A stretch of 64,000 nt of DNA from Flavobacterium sp. UGB4466 (GTDB lineage Bacteria > Bacteroidota > Bacteroidia > Flavobacteriales > Flavobacteriaceae): positions 1 to 64,000 of the forward strand of contig NZ_CAGKLC010000002.1 in assembly GCF_903469665.1 (NCBI RefSeq), in the 5' to 3' direction. Below, in pieces: positions 5,741 through 16,991 of the stretch (position 1 is the stretch's first letter; each line of letters begins with the position of its first letter). A program made the translations under genes and the position numbers. Under the pieces are notes generated by a model. It was not told the origin of the DNA. It did not search any database and saw only the letters and a program-made list of their open reading frames with translations.

Positions 5741-5862
5741 TGTATTTGAAAATTGAAAACTACGCAATCGTTATTTTTTTTTACATTTAACAATTAAAAA
5801 GGGTATTATGTTCATTTTTTTTATTAAAATTGGGCTCTTTTTTTATATTTAAAATAATTCTA

Positions 5863-8034
5863 ATGAATACAGGTAAAATTACTGTTATATTTTTATTTTT
5901 AGTGGCCACTATTTTTGGTCAGCAAAAAATTACTGTCGAGAATATTTATAGCGGAGCATTTCGGGCAAAAGGAATGGATGAACTGCAATCGTTAAAAAAT
6001 ACAGACCAATATACGGTACTAAATGTAGATCAGGCCAGCCGAAGCATGCAGATTGATTTGTACGATTTTGCAACACTAAAAAAAGTAGCCAATTTAATCG
6101 ATACAAAGAATCATGCAGCTCTTACTGAAGGAATTGACAGTTATACTTTTGATGCCTCAGAGAAAAAGATTTTAATTGCCTGTAATAGCAAACAAATTTT
6201 CCGTCACTCGTTTACAGCAGATTACTTCTTATACGATATCACCACAAGAACGTTGAGTAAATTATTTGATTTTCAGATTCAGGAGCCAACTTTCTCTCCC
6301 GACGGAACTAAAATCGCATATGCAAAAGAGAATAACTTATATGTGTATGATTTGGCTTCGAAAAAATCAACGGCTGTTACTACTGATGGAAAGAAAAATG
6401 CTGTCATCAATGGTATCACGGACTGGGTTTATGAAGAAGAGTTCTCCTTTGTTCGTGCTTTTGACTGGAGTAAAGACAGTAAAAAATTAGCTTACATCCG
6501 TTTTGATGAAAGCGCTGTTCCGGAATTCTCGATGTCAATCTTTCAAAAAGATTTGTATCCAACGATTGAAACGTTTAAGTATCCTAAGGCAGGAGAAAAA
6601 AACTCAATAGTATCTTTACACATTTATGATGCGGTGAGTAATGCGGGTAAAAAAGTTGATTTAGGAAACTATAATGACTTTTATATTGCAAGATTACAAT
6701 GGACAAATGATAACAATGTATTATCTGCTCAGGTTTTAAACCGTCATCAGGACAATCTGGATTTACTGTTTGTGGACGGAACTACCGCTGCAACAAAAGT
6801 GGTTTTGAATGAAAAAGACAAAGCTTATGTGGATGTTACCGACAATTTGACCTTCTTAAAAGACAATAGCTTTATCTGGACAAGCGAAAAAGACGGGTTT
6901 AATCATATTTACTTATATGATAAAAACGGAAAACTTAAGAATCAGGTTACAAAAGGAAACTGGGAAGTAGTGTCTTACTACGGTTTCGATGAAAAAAATA
7001 AAACAATTTTCTATCAGTCTACAGAAAATGGTTCAATCAACAGAGATATTTATCGTATTGCTTTAGACGGAAAGAATAAAATTCGTTTGTCTAAAAATAC
7101 TGGAACAAGTGCGGCAACTTTTAGTCCAAACTTTCAGTTTTTTATCAATACTTTCTCAAGCAGTACTCAGCCTACCACTTATACTTTGAATGAGGCGAAA
7201 ACAGGAAAAGAAATCCAGGTTATCGAAAACAATCAGGCGCTTTCTGCTAAATTAACAGCTTACAATTTACCGACAAAAGAATTTTTTGTTTTAAAAACAG
7301 CTAAAGGCAATGAGCTTAATGCGTGGATTTTAAAACCGAAAGACTTTGATCCTTCAAAAAAATATCCGGTTTTCATGTACCAGTATTCTGGGCCTGGTTC
7401 TCAGCAGGTAAACAACGATTGGAACAATTCAGACGACTATTGGTTTGCATCCCTAACACAGCAAGGTTATATTGTGGCTTGTGTTGACGGTAGAGGAACC
7501 GGTTTTAAAGGGGCAGATTTCAAAAAAGTTACTCAAAAAGAATTAGGAAAATACGAAGTAGAAGATCAGATTGACGCCGCAAAAGTAATTGGAGCATATC
7601 CGTATGTGGATGCTTCAAGAATTGGAATCTTCGGTTGGAGTTATGGCGGATTTATGGCTTCAAACTGTATCTTCCAGGGTAATGATGTTTTTAAAATGGC
7701 AATTGCAGTTGCTCCGGTAACCAACTGGCGTTTTTATGACAGCGTTTACACGGAAAGATACATGCAGACTCCGCAGGAAAATGCAAGCGGGTACGATCAG
7801 AACTCTCCAATAAATCACGTTGACAAACTAAAAGGGAAGTTTTTACTGATTCACGGATCAGCAGATGATAATGTACACGTACAAAATTCAATGCAAATGA
7901 TGGAAGCATTGATTCAGGCCAATAAACAATTTGATTCTCAAATTTATCCGGACAAAAATCATGGTATTTACGGAGGAAAAACCAGAATTCAGCTTTACAA
8001 CAAAATGACTAACTTCATCAAAGAAAATTTATAA
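5863..8034 (+). CDS. DPP-IV-like S9 family peptidase (secreted)
   Basis: This serine exopeptidase of family S9B releases dipeptides or tripeptides after proline, probably in the periplasm. I place the start at ATG 5863, giving 723 residues and a clean signal peptide (MNTGKITVIFLFLVATIFG then QQ). A TTG 33 nt upstream is in frame but would add a less signal-like N-terminus. The N-terminal half is the beta-propeller. The glutamate pair of the substrate pocket is in DWVYEEEF. The C-terminal hydrolase has the nucleophile in GWSYGG (Ser593), Asp in HGSADDNVH (Asp668) and His in KNHGIYGG (His700). A peptide transporter gene follows 42 nt downstream, suggesting joint use of peptide substrates. Confidence 0.93.
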   Translation: MNTGKITVIFLFLVATIFGQQKITVENIYSGAFRAKGMDELQSLKNTDQYTVLNVDQASRSMQIDLYDFATLKKVANLIDTKNHAALTEGIDSYTFDASEKKILIACNSKQIFRHSFTADYFLYDITTRTLSKLFDFQIQEPTFSPDGTKIAYAKENNLYVYDLASKKSTAVTTDGKKNAVINGITDWVYEEEFSFVRAFDWSKDSKKLAYIRFDESAVPEFSMSIFQKDLYPTIETFKYPKAGEKNSIVSLHIYDAVSNAGKKVDLGNYNDFYIARLQWTNDNNVLSAQVLNRHQDNLDLLFVDGTTAATKVVLNEKDKAYVDVTDNLTFLKDNSFIWTSEKDGFNHIYLYDKNGKLKNQVTKGNWEVVSYYGFDEKNKTIFYQSTENGSINRDIYRIALDGKNKIRLSKNTGTSAATFSPNFQFFINTFSSSTQPTTYTLNEAKTGKEIQVIENNQALSAKLTAYNLPTKEFFVLKTAKGNELNAWILKPKDFDPSKKYPVFMYQYSGPGSQQVNNDWNNSDDYWFASLTQQGYIVACVDGRGTGFKGADFKKVTQKELGKYEVEDQIDAAKVIGAYPYVDASRIGIFGWSYGGFMASNCIFQGNDVFKMAIAVAPVTNWRFYDSVYTERYMQTPQENASGYDQNSPINHVDKLKGKFLLIHGSADDNVHVQNSMQMMEALIQANKQFDSQIYPDKNHGIYGGKTRIQLYNKMTNFIKENL

Positions 8035-8076
8035 TTATAAAACAAAACTAAAAACCTTAAATAAATAATAAAGAAT

Positions 8077-9753
8077 ATGGGAGAAACTCAGGTAAAAACA
8101 GCGCATCCAAAAGGACTTTGGGTATTATTCGGAACGGAGATGTGGGAGCGGTTCAACTTTTATGGAATGCGAGCTTTATTAACTTTATTTCTGGTAAATT
8201 CATTGTTGATGAAGGAAGAAGAGGCTTCTTTGATTTACGGAGGTTTTCTTGGACTTTGTTATTTAACACCAATGTTGGGAGGTTTTGTTGCCGATCGTTT
8301 CTTAGGAAATAGAAATTGTATCATCTTGGGAGGGTTGCTTATGGCAATCGGACAATTGTTGTTGTTTACCAGTGGAAGTGTTTTTGAAGGTAACAGAGCG
8401 TTTGCTACTATTATTATGTACACTGCATTAGGAGTTATCGTATTCGGTAACGGATTCTTCAAGCCAAACATTTCAAGTATGGTAGGAAGTTTGTATCCTA
8501 AACAGGAAAAGACAAAATTGGATAGTGCTTTTACTATTTTTTATATGGGTATCAATATTGGTGCTTTTTTAGGACAGTCTATTTGCCCTTTGTTAGGAGA
8601 TGTTAAAGATGCCGGTGGAGTTAGAGATATTCACGCTTTTAGATGGGGGTTCCTTGCTGCTTCTGCTGCAATGTTTATCGGAACAATTCTTTTTTACTTC
8701 CTGAAAAATAAATACGTGGTTTCTCCTGAAGGAAAACCATTAGGAGGTTTACCTTCTAAAAATGACGCCTCTGATTTTGAAGAAGGAGAAGCTCAGAAAG
8801 CTGATTTCTCAAATAAAGCTTTACTAGCTGCCGGAATCGCTTTTGTCACTTTAGGGTTCTTTTTCCATTATGTGGTTGGTCAGAACTTGATTTATACTTT
8901 GATTTATTCTAGTGGTTTGTCATTGGCGGGATTAATTATTTCGGATACTTCTTTGACTAAAGTAGAGAGAGACAGGATTATTGTAATTTACATCGTTTCT
9001 TTCTTTATTATTTTCTTCTGGGCAGCTTTTGAGCAGGCAGGTTCGTCATTGACTTTTATTGCAGACAACCAAACGGATAGAAATTTCTTCGGATGGCAAA
9101 TGCCTCCGTCAATGGTTCAGATTTTTAACGGACTATTCGTAGTATTATTAGCAGTGCCGTTTAGCGTACTTTGGGATACTTTAAGAGCTAAAGGTAAAGA
9201 GCCAATTTCACCGGTAAAATTAGCCGTTGGTTTAGTGGTGATTTCGGTTAGTTTCTTCATGATCGCTACTCAGGTTTCTTATATCGGAACATCAGGGTTG
9301 TTATTGGTAAAATGGCTTATTTTATTATATTTCTTAAATACATGTGCTGAATTATGTTTGTCTCCAATTGGTTTGTCATTGGTAGGTAAACTTTCTCCAA
9401 AACGTTTTGCTTCGTTATTGTACGGAGTATTCTTCTTGTCAAATGCTTCAGGTTATGCTTTAGGAGGAACTTTAGGTTCAATCTTACCGGCAACCGGAGA
9501 TAAATTTGCAAAAGCAAAAGAATTAGGAATTGACCTTCAGGCAGTTTTAGACAACAAGATTACACCAACAGCTGAACAATTGGCTCTGTTGGAAAAACAT
9601 CAGATTAGTGCACATAACCACTTCTTTGCCGGATTCGAAATTCATAACTTATACGAATTCTTCATGGTATTTGTGGTCTTAACTGGTATTGCTGCAATTA
9701 TTTTATTTGCTTTGACTCCATTTCTGAAAAGAATGATGCATGGTGTTAGATAA
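8077..9753 (+). CDS. POT/PTR2 family peptide transporter 1
   Basis: This 558-residue inner-membrane proton-coupled di- or tripeptide importer has the POT signature ExxERF in helix 1 (EMWERFNFYGMRALL). GNGFFKPNISSMVG and FYMGINIGAFLG in helices 4-5 are the PTR2 signature regions. About 14 hydrophobic helices are visible. The cytoplasmic loop after helix 6 is hydrophilic and long. It follows the DPP-IV-like peptidase gene and heads a run of three paralogues, so the group should take up the dipeptides made by the peptidase. A hairpin terminator follows at 9777-9813. Confidence 0.92.
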   Translation: MGETQVKTAHPKGLWVLFGTEMWERFNFYGMRALLTLFLVNSLLMKEEEASLIYGGFLGLCYLTPMLGGFVADRFLGNRNCIILGGLLMAIGQLLLFTSGSVFEGNRAFATIIMYTALGVIVFGNGFFKPNISSMVGSLYPKQEKTKLDSAFTIFYMGINIGAFLGQSICPLLGDVKDAGGVRDIHAFRWGFLAASAAMFIGTILFYFLKNKYVVSPEGKPLGGLPSKNDASDFEEGEAQKADFSNKALLAAGIAFVTLGFFFHYVVGQNLIYTLIYSSGLSLAGLIISDTSLTKVERDRIIVIYIVSFFIIFFWAAFEQAGSSLTFIADNQTDRNFFGWQMPPSMVQIFNGLFVVLLAVPFSVLWDTLRAKGKEPISPVKLAVGLVVISVSFFMIATQVSYIGTSGLLLVKWLILLYFLNTCAELCLSPIGLSLVGKLSPKRFASLLYGVFFLSNASGYALGGTLGSILPATGDKFAKAKELGIDLQAVLDNKITPTAEQLALLEKHQISAHNHFFAGFEIHNLYEFFMVFVVLTGIAAIILFALTPFLKRMMHGVR

Positions 9754-9776
9754 CATAAATCGTAATCATATATAAA

Positions 9777-9813
9777 AAATTACCTACAGGTTTAGGCTTG
9801 TAGGTAATTTTAA
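9777..9813 (+). terminator. Hairpin terminator after peptide transporter 1
   Basis: A perfect 12-bp stem (AAATTACCTACA with TGTAGGTAATTT, 10-nt loop) ends in a T-rich tract. It separates the first transporter gene from the next two, which may need their own promoter or depend on read-through. Confidence 0.75.
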
Positions 9814-9832
9814 TTTTAAAGACTTTATAGTT

Positions 9833-11491
9833 ATGTGGAAAAAACACCCAAAAGCATTGCCATTCCTGTTTCTGTCTGAAATGTGGGAACGTTTTGGTTA
9901 TTATTTAATGATCGGAATTTTTACTTTATATCTGAAAGATGTAAAGAGCGGTTTTGCCATGACCGAGAAAGAGGCTTCTGATTTATACGGGACCTTTATT
10001 GCTTTGGTTTTTCTGACTCCGTTTATTGGCGGACTAATTGCCGATCGATATTTAGGATATAGAAAATCAGTCATTCTTGGCGGAATTTTAATGGGAATCG
10101 GTTACTTCTTAATTGGAGTGCATGATTTGACCATGCTTTATATCGCCATGACTTTGATAATTGTTGGGAATGGTTTTTTTAAACCCAATATTTCTACATT
10201 ATTGGGCAGTTTTTATTCTAAAGAAGAGTATAAAGATAAAAAAGATGAAGGCTACAATATTTTCTATATGGGAATTAATGTTGGAGGTTTTATCTGTAAT
10301 TTCTTTGGAGCTGCTTTGCAAATCCTTTTGGGATGGCATTGGGCTTTTATGGCTGCCGGTGTCGGAATGTTTATAGGTGTTATTGTGTTTTTGTTAGGTA
10401 CGAAGCATTATGTGGGGCACGACCAGAAAAAAGGAGTACAGGAAGGTGATATGCCTTTTTATAAAATTATACTGTTTATTTTATTGCCCTCTTTTGTTTT
10501 TGGAGCAATTGGCTGGTTGATAAAAGGAGTAGCTTCAGATGCTAATGTGAATAGTTCTATATTTGGTTCAGACAGTACAGACGCTTTTATTTTTGCATGT
10601 ATTCCAATAGTACTCTTTTATGGATCACTTTATTTTAAAGCAAAAACAGAAGATAAGCGATCAATAGGAGCCTTATTGGCTATTTTTGGAGTAGTGATTT
10701 TATTTTGGGCAGTCTTTAAACTTAATGGCTCGGCACTTACTACCTGGGCAGACCGATATACTGACAGAGAAGTAACCGGAACATCCGGTAAGGTGATTGC
10801 TAAGCTTAAACTGGCAAAAGAAGTTGAGTATAAAAGGGACTCTACTGAACTATACGATGATCAGTTTCGTTTGCAAAAGGTAAATGGAGTGGTTAAGAAA
10901 GAAGTCAATTATCCTTTATATTTTAGAAATGTTGCTCCGGATAAATTACCGGCAGAAGGTGCTAAGGTTCATCTTTGGGCGACAAATTTAAGTCAGTCTA
11001 TCAACCCGGCCTGGGTGGTTATATTAACTCCTTTGATCGTTGCATTCTTCTCTTTTTTACGAATGCGTAAAAAGGAACCTTCAACACCTACTAAGATTGC
11101 TTTCGGTTTGCTGATTTCGGCGCTGTCTGTTTTGGTTATGATAGCTGCTGTAAAAATTGGGAATAACGGAGCAGAGAAAGTCAGTGCCTGGTGGTTAGTC
11201 GCGAATTATGGTATCATAACAATTGGTGAATTGTTTTTGAGTCCCATGGGATTATCAGTAGTTTCCAAGTTAAGTCCCGTTAATATCACTTCCTTAATGA
11301 TGGGAGGCTGGTTCCTGTCGACTTCTATAGGAAATAAATTAAGTGGAGTTTTAGCCAGTATGTGGGATACTTACGATAATAAAGTCAACTTTTTTTGGGT
11401 AAATTTTGCGCTGTTAATGTTTGCGACAATATTGATGTTTGCTTTAGTAAAGCAACTTAACAAAGTGATGAAAGAGAGAGGAATTAATTAA
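9833..11491 (+). CDS. POT/PTR2 family peptide transporter 2
   Basis: This 552-residue paralogue of the gene upstream has ExxERF as EMWERFGYYLM, GNGFFKPNISTLLG, and FYMGINVGGF. It carries a hydrophilic insertion of roughly 80 residues (from about DRYTDREVTG to LPAEGAKVHLW) between two helices in the second half. The first paralogue has only a short stretch there (IADNQTDRNFFGWQMP). The insertion may face the periplasm and alter substrate access; this is inference. It is followed 14 nt later by the third transporter, so the two are co-transcribed. Confidence 0.92.
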   Translation: MWKKHPKALPFLFLSEMWERFGYYLMIGIFTLYLKDVKSGFAMTEKEASDLYGTFIALVFLTPFIGGLIADRYLGYRKSVILGGILMGIGYFLIGVHDLTMLYIAMTLIIVGNGFFKPNISTLLGSFYSKEEYKDKKDEGYNIFYMGINVGGFICNFFGAALQILLGWHWAFMAAGVGMFIGVIVFLLGTKHYVGHDQKKGVQEGDMPFYKIILFILLPSFVFGAIGWLIKGVASDANVNSSIFGSDSTDAFIFACIPIVLFYGSLYFKAKTEDKRSIGALLAIFGVVILFWAVFKLNGSALTTWADRYTDREVTGTSGKVIAKLKLAKEVEYKRDSTELYDDQFRLQKVNGVVKKEVNYPLYFRNVAPDKLPAEGAKVHLWATNLSQSINPAWVVILTPLIVAFFSFLRMRKKEPSTPTKIAFGLLISALSVLVMIAAVKIGNNGAEKVSAWWLVANYGIITIGELFLSPMGLSVVSKLSPVNITSLMMGGWFLSTSIGNKLSGVLASMWDTYDNKVNFFWVNFALLMFATILMFALVKQLNKVMKERGIN

Positions 11492-11505
11492 TTATTTATA
11501 AATAA

Positions 11506-12990
11506 ATGGAGCAAAAAATCACTTTAGAAGAAATTCAAAATTTTAAAGGCAATTATCCGAAACAATTATGGTATTTGTTTTTTGTCGAAATGTGGGAGCG
11601 TTTTTGCTTTTACGGAATGCGTGGGGTTTTGGTTATTTTTATGGTCGATCAGCTTTTCTTGAAAGAAGATCATGCCAGCGAGCAATATGGTGCTATTCAG
11701 GCTTTTGTATATGCCTTTACTTTTATTGGAGGTATTTTTGCCGATAAAGTATTAGGATTTAAAAAATCGTTGTTTTTTGGAGGAATCGTCATGATTCTGG
11801 GGAACCTTTTGATTGCTATTGCGCCTCATGATTTCTTTTATTACGGAATTGCTTTTTCTATTATTGGGACAGGTTTTTTTAAGCCCAATGTTTCTTCAAT
11901 GGTCGGAGAATTGTATCGTGAAGATGATGGTCGAAGAGATGCAGGTTATGGGATGTTTTATGCCGGTATAAATGTTGGCGGACTTTTTGGTGGTGCTTTG
12001 TGTGTGTATTTAGGGAAGTTTTATTCTTGGCAATTGTGCTTTTTATCCGCTGCAATTGTAATGTTTTTAGGGTTGATCACCTTTTTATTTACTAAAAAAT
12101 ATTTAGGACCAATTGGTGATTCTCCGTTATTGAATTTAACACCGCAAAAGAGACGAATTCGTGAGATAGCCGTATATGTTGTGTCTATTTTGAGTTTGCC
12201 TTTTATTTTTATAATGGTTAAGAATACGAAGTATACGGATTATTTTATGTATACTATTGGTACAGTTGCTGTTTTGTACTTTGCTTATGAATTGTTTAAA
12301 CTGGGAGATTCTAAATTGCAAAAGAAGCTTTTTGCTGCTTTTCTGTTTGTATTTTTCTATTTCCTGTTCAATTCTATTTACGAACAAAGTGGTGGATCGT
12401 TATCGCTTTTTGCAAAAGATAATTTGAATAATAAATTGTTGTTTTTTACAATTGATCCCAACGTTGTGAACAACAGTTCGAATACTTTTTTTGTAGTAGT
12501 TTTAAGCCCGCTTATTGGTTTGTTGTGGATATGGTTAGGGAAACGGAAAATTGAACCGAATACTTTAATTAAATTCGGAATTGGGTTTTTATTCCTGGCA
12601 GCTTCTTTTTACATCTTCTATCTGACCAAATTCTTTGCCGATGCTAACGGAATTGCTTCATTGAATGTCTTTACGTTTGCTTATCTGATAACCACTATCG
12701 GAGAGCTTTGTTTAGGACCAATCGGAATGTCAATCATTACCAAATTATCTCCAAAAAGATTATTCGGAATGATGATGGGGTTGTGGTTCCTGGCAAGTGC
12801 TTTTGGACAGTTGGCTGCGGGTAAACTGGGAGCCGAGATTTCCAGATCAAATACCGGCGACACCTTGATTTCTAAATTGCAATCGTATACAGAAGGTTAC
12901 TATCAACTGGCTATTTATTCGCTAGTTGCGGGCTTGATATTATTAGCAATTTCGCCAATTATTAGAAAATTAATGCAAGAAGTAAAATAG
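11506..12990 (+). CDS. POT/PTR2 family peptide transporter 3
   Basis: This 494-residue third paralogue has ExxERF as EMWERFCFYGMRGVL, GTGFFKPNVSSMVGEL and FYAGINVGGLFGG. It is the shortest of the three. Its position 14 nt after transporter 2 indicates one mRNA. The three proteins are clearly different from each other, so this is an old expansion rather than a recent duplication, and they probably differ in peptide preference. Confidence 0.92.
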   Translation: MEQKITLEEIQNFKGNYPKQLWYLFFVEMWERFCFYGMRGVLVIFMVDQLFLKEDHASEQYGAIQAFVYAFTFIGGIFADKVLGFKKSLFFGGIVMILGNLLIAIAPHDFFYYGIAFSIIGTGFFKPNVSSMVGELYREDDGRRDAGYGMFYAGINVGGLFGGALCVYLGKFYSWQLCFLSAAIVMFLGLITFLFTKKYLGPIGDSPLLNLTPQKRRIREIAVYVVSILSLPFIFIMVKNTKYTDYFMYTIGTVAVLYFAYELFKLGDSKLQKKLFAAFLFVFFYFLFNSIYEQSGGSLSLFAKDNLNNKLLFFTIDPNVVNNSSNTFFVVVLSPLIGLLWIWLGKRKIEPNTLIKFGIGFLFLAASFYIFYLTKFFADANGIASLNVFTFAYLITTIGELCLGPIGMSIITKLSPKRLFGMMMGLWFLASAFGQLAAGKLGAEISRSNTGDTLISKLQSYTEGYYQLAIYSLVAGLILLAISPIIRKLMQEVK

Positions 12991-13043: not shown

Positions 13044-13511
13044 ATGAAAAAAATATTTTTAATAACGCTTTTTTTAGCGGGAGCATTTGTAACGCAGGCA
13101 CAAGAGTTAAAATGGTATACGGATGTTAAAGAAGCGATCACTGTTAGTAATAAAGAGAAAAAACCTCTGTTAATGTTTTTTACCGGAAGTGACTGGTGTG
13201 GGTGGTGTATTCGTTTGCAGAATGAGGTTTTAAAAACGGCTGAATTCAAAAAATGGGCTACCGAAAATGTGGTGTTGGTTGAGCTTGATTATCCAAGAAG
13301 AACACCTCAGACACCGGAGCTTAAAAATCAGAATAATGAATTACAGCAGGCATTTGGAATTCAGGGATTCCCGACTATTTATTTCACAAGCGCTGAGTCA
13401 AAAGACGGGAAAGTGAATTTTAAAGGATTGGGGCAGACAGGATATGTTGCCGGTGGTCCGACCGCCTGGTTAACAGTTGCTGAGGGAATTGTACATCCTA
13501 AAAAATCGTAA
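13044..13511 (+). CDS. Secreted thioredoxin-family protein with CxxC
   Basis: This 155-residue protein has a signal peptide (MKKIFLITLFLAGAFVTQAQ). The thioredoxin fold carries the redox motif WCGWC (within TGSDWCGWCIRLQNEV) and the cis-proline loop GFPTIY. It should act as a periplasmic disulfide reductase or oxidase; the partner is not apparent. A conserved GGPTAW segment near the end is shared with the two CxxC-less paralogues that follow. A terminator at 13541 separates it from them, so it is a separate transcript. Confidence 0.88.
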   Translation: MKKIFLITLFLAGAFVTQAQELKWYTDVKEAITVSNKEKKPLLMFFTGSDWCGWCIRLQNEVLKTAEFKKWATENVVLVELDYPRRTPQTPELKNQNNELQQAFGIQGFPTIYFTSAESKDGKVNFKGLGQTGYVAGGPTAWLTVAEGIVHPKKS

Positions 13512-13540: not shown

Positions 13541-13576
13541 AAAAAACTCCTTGCCTTTTGGTAAGGAGTTTTTTTG
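13541..13576 (+). terminator. Terminator after thioredoxin-family gene
   Basis: The stem AACTCCTTGCC pairs with GGTAAGGAGTT (one G-T pair) around a TTTT loop and is followed by a T run. Confidence 0.85.
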
Positions 13577-13737
13577 TTTCGTAAGAAAAAGTAATAAGTA
13601 AACCCGTGCTTATTGTGTATTTTGTAATTTATTTTGGTTAAAAAAACACATAATATATTTTTTGTATTAATAAAAATTGGAAAATTAAAATATTATGTTA
13701 ATTTCGTCTTAATATTCTAACCAAAAACCAATTTAAT

Positions 13738-14190
13738 ATGACCAAAAAAATACTTATCCTACTGTTTTTTTTAGGTTCAATTTTTATGCAGGCGCAGAAT
13801 TTAGTTTGGAAAACAAATATGACGGATGCTATTGCGCTTAGTAATGAACAGAAAAAACCAATGTTAATTTTATTCACTGCCTCAGGTGTACCGGAAAATC
13901 TTCAGAATGAAATTTTTAAAACTCCAGACTTTGCGGTTTGGTCCCGTGACAACGTTATTCTTGTAAAACTTGATTTGTCTGACAGTACAGCTGATGAAAG
14001 TGATAGAGAACAAAAGCTCAAATTGAAAAGTGCTTTTGGAGTGGAGGACTTGCCTGAAGTTTGTTTTGCAAGTGCTTCGATTAGAAAAAATAAAACCACA
14101 TTTAGCGCTTTAGGAAAAATTGCGTATAAACCGGGTGGTGCAAAAGCCTGGATTGCGGAGTCAAATGCAATTTTGCATTCAAGTGAGTAG
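13738..14190 (+). CDS. CxxC-less thioredoxin-like secreted protein A
   Basis: This 150-residue protein has a signal peptide ending in MQAQ. It aligns through its length with the thioredoxin at 13044: KKPMLILFTASG, the QNEIFKTPDF segment, DNVILVKLD, a retained cis-proline (DLPEV) and GGAKAW. The WCGWC stretch is missing: TGSDWCGWCIRLQNE in the neighbour corresponds here to TASGVPENLQNE, three residues shorter. Only one Cys remains, after the cis-Pro. It cannot do dithiol chemistry, so a binding or chaperone-like role is possible. It lies between two terminators with its own promoter region. Confidence 0.8.
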   Translation: MTKKILILLFFLGSIFMQAQNLVWKTNMTDAIALSNEQKKPMLILFTASGVPENLQNEIFKTPDFAVWSRDNVILVKLDLSDSTADESDREQKLKLKSAFGVEDLPEVCFASASIRKNKTTFSALGKIAYKPGGAKAWIAESNAILHSSE

Positions 14191-14228
14191 TAAGATTTAA
14201 ATTAAGTTTCTTAGTTTAATTTGTAGAT

Positions 14229-14264
14229 TCCCTTTTTGCTCTTGGGCGAGAAGGGATTTTTTTT
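14229..14264 (+). terminator. Terminator after CxxC-less thioredoxin A
   Basis: The stem TCCCTTTTTGCT pairs with GGCGAGAAGGGA, partly through G-T pairs, and is followed by T8. Confidence 0.75.
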
Positions 14265-14459
14265 GAAAGGTTGATCCGGATAATCAATAGTTTTGTCATT
14301 TAAAAGGGTATTTTTTTTTATTTTCTTAAAAATCCAATACTTTATTAGTGAATTTAAATTTATGTTACTTTTTTAACTTATTTTATTTGGTTTTTACTTG
14401 TTTGGTGAAGATATTGTGTTAATTTAGTCGCATTAACCTGCTTAAAAAACCAATTTAGT

Positions 14460-14906
14460 ATGAACCGAAAACTACTTATTTTATTACTTTTTTTAGGTTC
14501 GTTTGGCCTGCATTCGCAAAATTTGATTTGGAAGACAGATATGAATGATGCTATAATGGCGAGTGATTCACAAAAACGGCCCTTATTAATTTTTTTCACT
14601 GCTGCCGGAGTTTCGCAGAGATTCCAGAGTGAAATTTTTGTTACACCTGATTTTGCAGTATGGTCACGTGATAATGTCATTTTGGTAAAACTGGATATGT
14701 CAGATACAGAAGCATCTGACATGGTAAAAGAGCAAAATGTCAAGTTAAAAAACGCTTTAGGTATTCAGGAACTTCCGCAAGTATGTCTTTTAATGGCTTC
14801 TGTTCGAAAAGGCAAAACTACTTTTAATAACTTAGGATTGGTTCCGTACAAACAAGGCGGGGCGAAAGCCTGGATTGCAGATGCAAATTTAATTTTGAAT
14901 CCGTAA
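14460..14906 (+). CDS. CxxC-less thioredoxin-like secreted protein B
   Basis: This 148-residue paralogue of the gene at 13738 has a signal peptide (MNRKLLILLLFLGSFGLHSQ). The active-site loop has the same shortening (TAAGVSQRFQSEIF), so the loss of CxxC came before this duplication. The cis-proline (ELPQV), DNVILVKLDMSD and GGAKAW are kept. Its upstream region also resembles that of paralogue A (GTTAATTT near the promoter, AAACCAATTTA just before the ATG), so the regulatory region was duplicated with the gene. Retention of the fold without the cysteines argues for a functional non-redox protein. Confidence 0.8.
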   Translation: MNRKLLILLLFLGSFGLHSQNLIWKTDMNDAIMASDSQKRPLLIFFTAAGVSQRFQSEIFVTPDFAVWSRDNVILVKLDMSDTEASDMVKEQNVKLKNALGIQELPQVCLLMASVRKGKTTFNNLGLVPYKQGGAKAWIADANLILNP

Positions 14907-14954: not shown

Positions 14955-16991
14955 TTAGTTTAAAGAATAAAATCCCTTTTCGGCTGTGGCATGAAAAGGG
15001 ATGTTTTTTTTACGGCAACTGCTTTTCCAGATTTTTTGAATAGAGTAGGAATTCGATGCATCTGCAATTATAATTTTAGGATGCAGCTCTTGCAGAACAC
15101 GGTCTAAATTGATTTTCGGGGATTGAATTAACAATAATAGGTCAGGTTGAGAGCTGATTTTATAAACTCCGGAACTGTCAATTACTAAGATCTTTTTTCC
15201 ATTAAAATAGAGCAGGTTTTTGATGCTGACAGTAGCGCTTAATTGACTAAAATCACTCGACAAATAAGAACTTAGAAGAGTTGCTTTTGAGGATTGAAGT
15301 AAAAGAGTATCATTTGAAAACACTTTGATACAACCTCCATTTTTCTGAGAAATTATAGAGTTGTTTTTAGTATGATAAACGATCATTTCACGTTGGGTTC
15401 CGGTTTCTCTTTTGGTGTAAATCATAGAAAGCTGAAACGCTATAACTGAAATCAATACAGCGAACGTTGTAGGGTAATTTTTTTTCTTGCCCCAGATTAT
15501 GGCAGAAATAATTAGAAAGTAAGAGGAGATAAGAAGACAGAAGTTAAAGCTAATGTTTTGGATAACAAACCACTTGAGCGATGCAATGTAATGGATGGTA
15601 TAATTTAAAAGGAAAATACTTTTTTCAAATAGCTCAGTGAGGACCATTGGAGGAGGACAAAAAACAGCAATAAGCAATACTAGGATCCCGGCAATCATGA
15701 TGAAAGATAATATAGGGATCATAACAATATTGGTAACGAAAAATAATCCCGGAAACTGGTGAAAATAATACAAGCATAAAGGTAATGTGCCTATTTGGGC
15801 AGCAAAAGAAACAGTTAGTGCGTTCCAAAGGAATTTTGAGATTTTAAGCTTTGGAGACCAGATACTGTTTAAGAGAGGTTGTAGCCAAAGAATGAAAAAC
15901 AAAGCAAAATAACTTAACTGAAAACCAACATCAAACAAAAAGTAAGGCTCGAAGAGCAGAATTAAAAACAAAGAGACAAGTAAAGTATGATACGTACTTC
16001 CTGTTCTTCTTAGATGGCTGCCAATAGCAAGAAAAGAAAACATGACAACAGAACGAAGTACCGACGGAGATAATCCTGAGATTACGGCAAAAAGTGCGAG
16101 AGACAGCAGTATTGAAATCAATTTTAATAAAGAGCCCTTTCGTGTGTTGGGAACAGGTTTTAAAATAAAACTAATGAACAGCATGATAAAACCAACATGA
16201 AGACCGGAAACCGACAGAATATGTGTAGCTCCTGAGAACTGATAATCCTGAATCAAATCATTTGAAATTTCTTGTCGCTGTCCCAATATAAGAGCAAGTG
16301 CAACGTTCATTTCCGTTTGACGAAAACCTGTTTTTTTCAGATTATTATAAATTCTGGAGTGTAAACGTCCGCAGTAATACCAGATGTCTTTTTGAAGTTT
16401 TTTATTAACCGCGATTTCTTTTTTATTGAGATACAACTGACCATAAATCTGTTTATCTGAAAGGTATTTTTGGTAGTCAAACTGATTTGGGTTTTTATTC
16501 GGACTAGTACGTTGTAAAATGGTTTTGACTTTTATTATGTTTCCAATAATAATTGGATTTTCAGCACTGTCCTTTTCTATATTTACAAGAATTTTTCCGG
16601 AGTAATTCCTATTGTTAATTTTCTTTACCTGCACATAGTAGCGGTCGCTGTATGCGTTGCTTTTTAGTTTTTCGCATACCACAAAAGTTATCGTTTGCGG
16701 AGAGCCAAAAACTTCTTTACAATGACTGTAGTTGGATTCTTGCAGCGATTCTGTATGAAGTAAAAGCGTTGCAATGCCAATAAGGAAAGAAATGAAAGAG
16801 ATGCTTATTCCAAAATAGATACTTCGCTTATTGTTTTTTTGAAGAGAAGAGTAAACAAGTAAAAAAGTAAGAAAACCAAGAACAAAAACAGAAGTTGTTA
16901 CCGTGAATTTTGATGGATAATAATAAGCAGCCAAAATGCCACAGCTAAACCAAATGGTAATTTTAGTTAAAGGAAAATCTAATACTTTCAT
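14955..16991 (-). CDS. ComEC/Rec2-type competence membrane protein
   Basis: This 678-residue inner-membrane protein is of the ComEC family, the channel for DNA uptake in transformable bacteria. The N-terminal part has hydrophobic helices and a DUF4131-like soluble domain. The core competence domain is marked by SGATHILSVSGLHVGF and many helices. The last 140 residues (after about residue 535) resemble the spacing of a metallo-beta-lactamase domain, but no HxHxDH metal motif is visible. So the nuclease-like domain found in some ComEC proteins is degenerate or absent. Whether the organism is naturally competent cannot be told from this gene alone. Confidence 0.9.
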   Translation of the reverse strand: MKVLDFPLTKITIWFSCGILAAYYYPSKFTVTTSVFVLGFLTFLLVYSSLQKNNKRSIYFGISISFISFLIGIATLLLHTESLQESNYSHCKEVFGSPQTITFVVCEKLKSNAYSDRYYVQVKKINNRNYSGKILVNIEKDSAENPIIIGNIIKVKTILQRTSPNKNPNQFDYQKYLSDKQIYGQLYLNKKEIAVNKKLQKDIWYYCGRLHSRIYNNLKKTGFRQTEMNVALALILGQRQEISNDLIQDYQFSGATHILSVSGLHVGFIMLFISFILKPVPNTRKGSLLKLISILLSLALFAVISGLSPSVLRSVVMFSFLAIGSHLRRTGSTYHTLLVSLFLILLFEPYFLFDVGFQLSYFALFFILWLQPLLNSIWSPKLKISKFLWNALTVSFAAQIGTLPLCLYYFHQFPGLFFVTNIVMIPILSFIMIAGILVLLIAVFCPPPMVLTELFEKSIFLLNYTIHYIASLKWFVIQNISFNFCLLISSYFLIISAIIWGKKKNYPTTFAVLISVIAFQLSMIYTKRETGTQREMIVYHTKNNSIISQKNGGCIKVFSNDTLLLQSSKATLLSSYLSSDFSQLSATVSIKNLLYFNGKKILVIDSSGVYKISSQPDLLLLIQSPKINLDRVLQELHPKIIIADASNSYSIQKIWKSSCRKKNIPFHATAEKGFYSLN

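Follow-up and report, generated by a model that had tools for sequence, protein, structure and literature searches.

Two secreted thioredoxin-fold proteins that lack the CxxC motif are encoded beside an intact DsbH-like enzyme in Flavobacterium sp. UGB4466. Are they decaying copies of that enzyme, or have they acquired a job other than catalysis? We examined these genes within a 64,000-nucleotide stretch of contig NZ_CAGKLC010000002.1 (the window; Table 1). The enzyme, P0001, is both the catalytic neighbour and the closest paralogue of the two proteins, P0002 and P0003. P0001 scores 48.7 bits against PF13899 (Thioredoxin_7; gathering cut-off 27) and 115.7 bits against the DsbH family NF043050, which is under the curated cut-off of 190. 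The genes in this part of the window run in the order DPP IV-type peptidase, three POT-family transporters, P0001, P0002, P0003 and, on the opposite strand, a comEC-like gene. The peptidase and the three tandem transporters occupy positions 5830-12990, and the transporter set beside the DsbH-like gene differs from species to species. The closest named record for P0002 is from F. tructae CCUG 60100 (99%).

Table 1. Features of the DsbH-like locus, in positions of the window.
Feature	Position	Strand	Basis
DsbH-like secreted thioredoxin-fold protein with SDWCGWC (P0001)	13044..13511	+	PDB 2ju5 (DsbH), E 1.6e-25
WCGWC codons of the catalytic neighbour P0001	13194..13208	+	residues 51-55 of P0001
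Promoter-like TTG-N19-TAATTTCG, upstream of D1	13677..13706	+	site 15-55 nt upstream in 80/80 named loci, 0.6 expected; loci related
First CxxC-less DsbH-fold paralogue (P0002, copy D1)	13738..14190	+	150 aa, open frame
FTASGVPENLQ in P0002, replacing FTGSDWCGWCIRLQ, three residues shorter	13873..13905	+	alignment with P0001
Cys109 codon of P0002, gained Cys at cis-Pro+3	14062..14064	+	C in 105/105 distinct D1 sequences
Terminator-like hairpin past D1	14229..14256	+	weak: scan found 2 sites vs 1.5 (sd 1.2) in shuffles
Promoter-like TTG-N19-TAATTTAG, upstream of D2	14398..14427	+	37/75 named loci, 1.0 expected; loci related
Second CxxC-less DsbH-fold paralogue (P0003, copy D2)	14460..14906	+	148 aa, open frame
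ComEC-like gene, marks the insertion site	14955..16991	-	PF03772 Competence, 198.5 bits; neighbour order

P0002 and P0003 each align with P0001 from end to end at 39% identity. The first-pass annotation had described this full-length relation correctly, but the GGAKAW segment that it listed as common to all three is not, as P0001 reads GGPTAW. SDWCGWC is missing from both proteins, neither catalytic cysteine is present, and the alignment confirms that both are three residues short at WCGWC; where P0001 has FTGSDWCGWCIRLQ, P0003 reads FTAAGVSQRFQ. Both genes start with ATG and, as had been proposed, retain open frames and signal-peptide-like N termini, which we read by eye as segments ending in QAQ and HSQ. 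Each protein contains exactly one cysteine, located three residues past the proline that aligns to cis-Pro. Thus, the earlier count of one cysteine holds, but the residue is not a leftover of the catalytic pair: it is gained and near-invariant.

We determined how widely the CxxC-less copies occur. P0002 gave matches at E ≤ 0.001 in 270 of the 299 genomes drawn from the genus. Among the loci fetched, a CxxC-less copy with an open frame was read in at least 64 of these 299 Flavobacterium genomes; the loss of CxxC is conserved among relatives. Within the fetched stretches, 19 of the 64 genomes carried one copy, 39 carried two and six carried three, and the catalytic gene lay in the same stretch in 63; the remaining stretch (L034) ends at a contig end, as does L147. 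A second search of 298 genomes with the most divergent copy as query added, among the matches listed, only one genome (G037) with two matches at E ≤ 1e-12. In 80 named loci, the catalytic gene was accompanied by two copies in 67, three in five and one in four when genes were labelled by a plain C..C string. Two more loci also count, as the C..C string of their third gene lies only in the N-terminal part. In 78 of the 80 named loci, therefore, between one and three CxxC-less copies come after the catalytic gene. F. johnsoniae strain CI04 (L152) has the three-gene set seen in the window. Of the two exceptions, one locus runs into a contig end and the other, from F. poyangense (L151), has a first CxxC-less copy and no catalytic DsbH-like gene within 8.4 kb. 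A locus in another genome (L063 in G175) has about 1.7 kb between the catalytic gene and the first copy, unlike other loci. The recurrence of the arrangement in these 78 named records and in another genome of the species refutes, through independent assemblies, the reading that the locus is an assembly or annotation artefact; we found nothing in its favour and regard its probability as negligible.

Outside the genus, we detected no CxxC-less copy among the loci read. Of the 30 best loci from a search of the family (349 genomes), the 27 from outside the genus all contained CGWC, as did all eight loci fetched from other families in a search of the order with the A3 profile (246 genomes). Elsewhere in the family, 14 loci from other genera have a different relative near the DsbH-like gene, a WCGPC thioredoxin of 180-202 aa.

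We next consider selection. One-ratio codon models were fitted for 40 species in which all three genes are present, drawn from the 73 loci that stayed below 98.5% identity out of 74 named three-gene loci, and gave omega values of 0.030 for the catalytic gene, 0.037 for the first copy and 0.088 for the second. Nei-Gojobori medians for close pairs, which share species and are not independent, were 0.028 (106 pairs), 0.037 (126 pairs) and 0.068 (25 pairs), respectively. Since the values for both copies lie far below 1, the dN/dS comparison that the first-pass annotation had called for supports its proposal that the copies are retained by selection. A look for pseudogenes in relatives agreed, as no internal stop was present in the CxxC-less rows among the matches listed in the 299- and 298-genome searches. 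A reading in which P0002 and P0003 are decaying copies or pseudogenes can draw on the lost catalytic motif and on the faster divergence of the second copy, but it is very improbable given the unbroken frames and the low omega in both the codon model and the close pairs. In addition, a promoter-like element precedes the first copy in all 80 loci, and P0002 is identical in the second genome of its species. We reject the pseudogene reading at the current sampling. Thus, the CxxC-less copies are under purifying selection and are not decaying. Since they are intact and held by natural selection, it is very likely that they have a new, non-catalytic job.

To place the loss of CxxC, we compared trees with gene order. 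All CxxC-less proteins formed one clade, with support of 100/100 in a tree of 82 sequences and 0.892 in a FastTree analysis of 334 sequences. In six loci from relatives without extra copies, comEC directly follows the catalytic gene, and in the 31 loci that we compared, the CxxC-less copies, where present, sit between these two genes. One clade in tandem between the same two neighbours indicates that CxxC was lost once, before duplication, as the first-pass annotation had concluded. However, the ground it gave, the shared shortening, does not prove a single loss. Of 105 first copies, 102 have a gap of three residues, as do 82 of 87 second copies (five unparsed) and all six third copies, but in the other three first copies, which belong to divergent species, the gap is two residues long. 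Because gap length varies among these lineages, equal length is less convincing evidence than the tree.

The mean distance from the shared node was 2.2 substitutions per site for CxxC-less tips vs 0.35 for catalytic tips, and the CxxC-less lineage thus went through a long fast stretch followed by strong constraint. Its point of attachment is uncertain: IQ-TREE nested the clade, with weak support, among the catalytic sequences from the genus, and FastTree made it sister to the catalytic copies (support for the catalytic clade 0.76). Within the clade, support was often low. We rejected the idea that D1 and D2 are two clean orthologous clades, since the D2 copies are not monophyletic. The tree, the gene order and the omega values together show that a secreted DsbH-like gene was duplicated in tandem and that the duplicate lost WCGWC once, evolved fast, came under strong constraint and was then copied again.

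What fold do the copies have? AlphaFold2 models of P0002 and P0001 reached mean pLDDT values of 84.4 and 83.6; the input alignment for P0002 contained catalytic homologues, and its model leans to their fold. Helix 2 of the P0002 model begins at residue 54, right after the shortened loop. The best structural match of this model was DsbH (2ju5; Foldseek E 5.4e-9, Z 18.7, rmsd 3.7 over 140), and the next were Bacteroides thioredoxin-like proteins, DsbD C-terminal domains, the UAS domain of UBXD7, and AGR2/AGR3. P0002 is thus predicted to retain the DsbH thioredoxin fold.

Comparison with known systems revealed likenesses and differences. P0002 and P0003 resemble DsbH (NF043050; Chlamydia DsbH 2ju5) in fold, in sequence (4e-13 and 4e-11) and in their signal-peptide-like start. 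They differ from it in lacking CxxC, in carrying one new cysteine, and in the E-(L/V)-D-(Y/F)-P stretch, which has Lys or Arg for Glu and mostly Ser for Pro; their NF043050 scores are 49.8 and 43.3 bits, against the cut-off of 190. They match Thioredoxin_7 (PF13899) weakly across the domain, with 20.8 and 23.7 bits, below the gathering score of 27. UAS domains, which belong near Thioredoxin_7, are described as parts of cytosolic eukaryotic p97 adapters; the UBXD7 domain is like P0002 in structure and unlike it in that setting. AGR2 and AGR3, which are eukaryotic, are thioredoxin folds of the secretory compartment that act by binding, and their single cysteine is at the CxxS site, not at cis-Pro+3. 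YbbN (CnoX), described as a bacterial thioredoxin-fold holdase, weakly matches the P0002 model. CnoX is cytoplasmic and carries an added TPR part, while P0002 has one domain and a signal-like start, with no TPR family found in these proteins of 148-150 aa by a Pfam scan to E 1. CxxC-less thioredoxin folds are already known as a kind, and P0002 and P0003 combine two features of the redox-inactive class, a predicted fold without CxxC and purifying selection. We found no description of these proteins in the titles and abstract beginnings listed by our searches of the open-access literature. The family differs from each of its named relatives by a single near-invariant cysteine, a tandem arrangement and the exchange of Glu for Lys.

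The reading that we favour, with about even confidence, is that P0002 and P0003 are periplasmic pseudo-oxidoreductases, that is, DsbH-derived proteins that would bind or hold other proteins in the periplasm. The first-pass annotation had suggested substrate holding, chaperoning or binding to a redox partner as putative roles. With the DsbH fold predicted to be retained and cis-Pro nearly always kept, each would most likely act as a stoichiometric binding protein that forms no mixed disulfides through CxxC. The groove by the cis-Pro loop would hold an extended client or dock a partner from the DsbH/DsbD branch. Because the same genome encodes two DsbD-type proteins, we favour a tie to that branch.

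The upstream regions of the three genes bear on this reading. A TTG-N19-TAATTTNG site, which resembles the promoter consensus of Flavobacterium, has its end 28-32 nt before the first copy in all 80 named loci and lies at a similar place before the second copy in 37 of 75. A site of this type precedes the catalytic gene in 3 of 78 (1.1 expected); the loci in these counts are related and not independent. In the window, the D1 and D2 elements are alike (TTG-N19-TAATTT(C/A)G), and the catalytic gene is instead preceded by TAAATTTG. A generic sigma-70 scan was at chance level (9 sites found vs 7.9). By eye, a terminator-like hairpin lies between P0001 and D1, near positions 13546-13575. From these elements, the P0001, D1 and D2 genes look separately transcribed. 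The separate promoter-like sites give no sign of co-expression with P0001, which counts against the periplasmic pseudo-oxidoreductase reading. They speak in favour of a structural or non-redox binding module, comparable to UAS or AGR types, that would operate apart from disulfide biology and sit beside DsbH by origin only. Tandem duplication by itself would explain the position of such a module, and both UBXD7 UAS and AGR2/AGR3 are among the structural matches. We consider this explanation rather unlikely; the shared compartment and the retained DsbH fold give a connection with the redox branch some plausibility. We also examined whether the promoter-like elements mark a wider regulon and rejected this idea: a stricter pattern occurred at three places in the organism's own genome, two of which are D1 and D2, and a backwards control also gave three. 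The third place had no ORF of ≥70 aa downstream in the stretch examined.

Comparison of 198 distinct CxxC-less sequences with 136 catalytic sequences revealed which residues changed. The first catalytic cysteine column is absent from all 198 CxxC-less sequences, and the second holds Pro, Ser, Asn, Gly, Ala or Asp, never Cys. Glu80 (P0001 numbering) is Glu in 136 of 136 catalytic sequences and in Chlamydia DsbH, and Lys or Arg in 198 of 198 CxxC-less sequences. Pro84 is replaced by Ser in 194 of the 198, and at Gln101 the CxxC-less sequences have Lys (192), Arg (5) or Gln (1). Glu80 probably corresponds to Lys57 of E. coli thioredoxin, beside the buried Asp26. Given this placement, the inversion from Glu to Lys or Arg would fit the end of thiol chemistry and is consistent with release from redox chemistry.

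A further contrast is at cis-Pro+3, where 197 of 198 CxxC-less sequences have a cysteine vs 0 of 136 catalytic sequences. This column raises the possibility, which we hold as an unlikely but substantial alternative, that CxxC was traded for a monothiol at cis-Pro+3, making the protein a sensor, a disulfide-tethered dimer or a covalent partner that P0001 reduces. Of the 198 CxxC-less sequences, 194 have the cis-Pro, and the other four, with Thr or Ser in its place, all retain the cysteine. Since cis-Pro was lost in 4 of 198 sequences and Cys109 in 1 of 198, a cysteine-centred role fits better than plain groove binding. On the other side, in the thioredoxin topology the strand position of cis-Pro+3 tends to lie inside the sheet, and the thiol may therefore be buried. 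No second cysteine was present in the 102 mature D1 sequences parsed (of 105), and so there is no internal disulfide in them; the mature start was unparsed for four sequences. The adjoining comEC also prompted us to consider a basic nucleic-acid binder. We rejected this candidate, as mature D1 is near neutral to acidic, with a median pI of 5.9 (102 of 105 parsed).

In its most specific form, which we regard as doubtful, the monothiol alternative holds that a DsbH-type two-cysteine oxidoreductase was turned, within one genus, into a periplasmic protein dedicated to single-cysteine work for the adjoining enzyme, whether as sensor, tethered dimer or covalent partner. Whichever role applies, the locus captures a change from enzyme to non-enzyme in place, with an intact enzyme, one to three pseudo-copies and copy-free species at the same locus. 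Because copy-bearing and copy-free species share this locus, deletions and one-residue changes can be used to test which function took the place of catalysis. One practical consequence is that the label 'thioredoxin' on a Flavobacterium gene does not guarantee a redox-active product.

A separate pseudo-DsbH is encoded in the 2.3-Mb genome G037 (L228:1501-3159), where point changes have turned WCGWC into WNGWS. A single open frame of 553 aa joins this protein to DUF1573 and to an additional C-terminal part, and the genome has a normal WCGWC copy elsewhere (L222). We found no second WNGWS case, as all ten further loci fetched in a search of 398 genomes of the genus have WCGWC. The repeated tandem copying, together with this separate WNGWS-DUF1573 copy, suggests that the genus may recruit the DsbH fold repeatedly for non-catalytic work.

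Two other features were observed. Positions 322-2516 of the window contain a tandem array of three paralogous ORFs, each about 190 aa long (e.g. QYVKSYEPINVFL), the first of which had no Pfam match at E 0.001; two of the three have N termini that, by eye, are lipoprotein-like. Finally, a VKOR domain is encoded at G000:C20:9082-9447 (L235) within an open frame of 524 aa, and this protein is a possible periplasmic oxidant.
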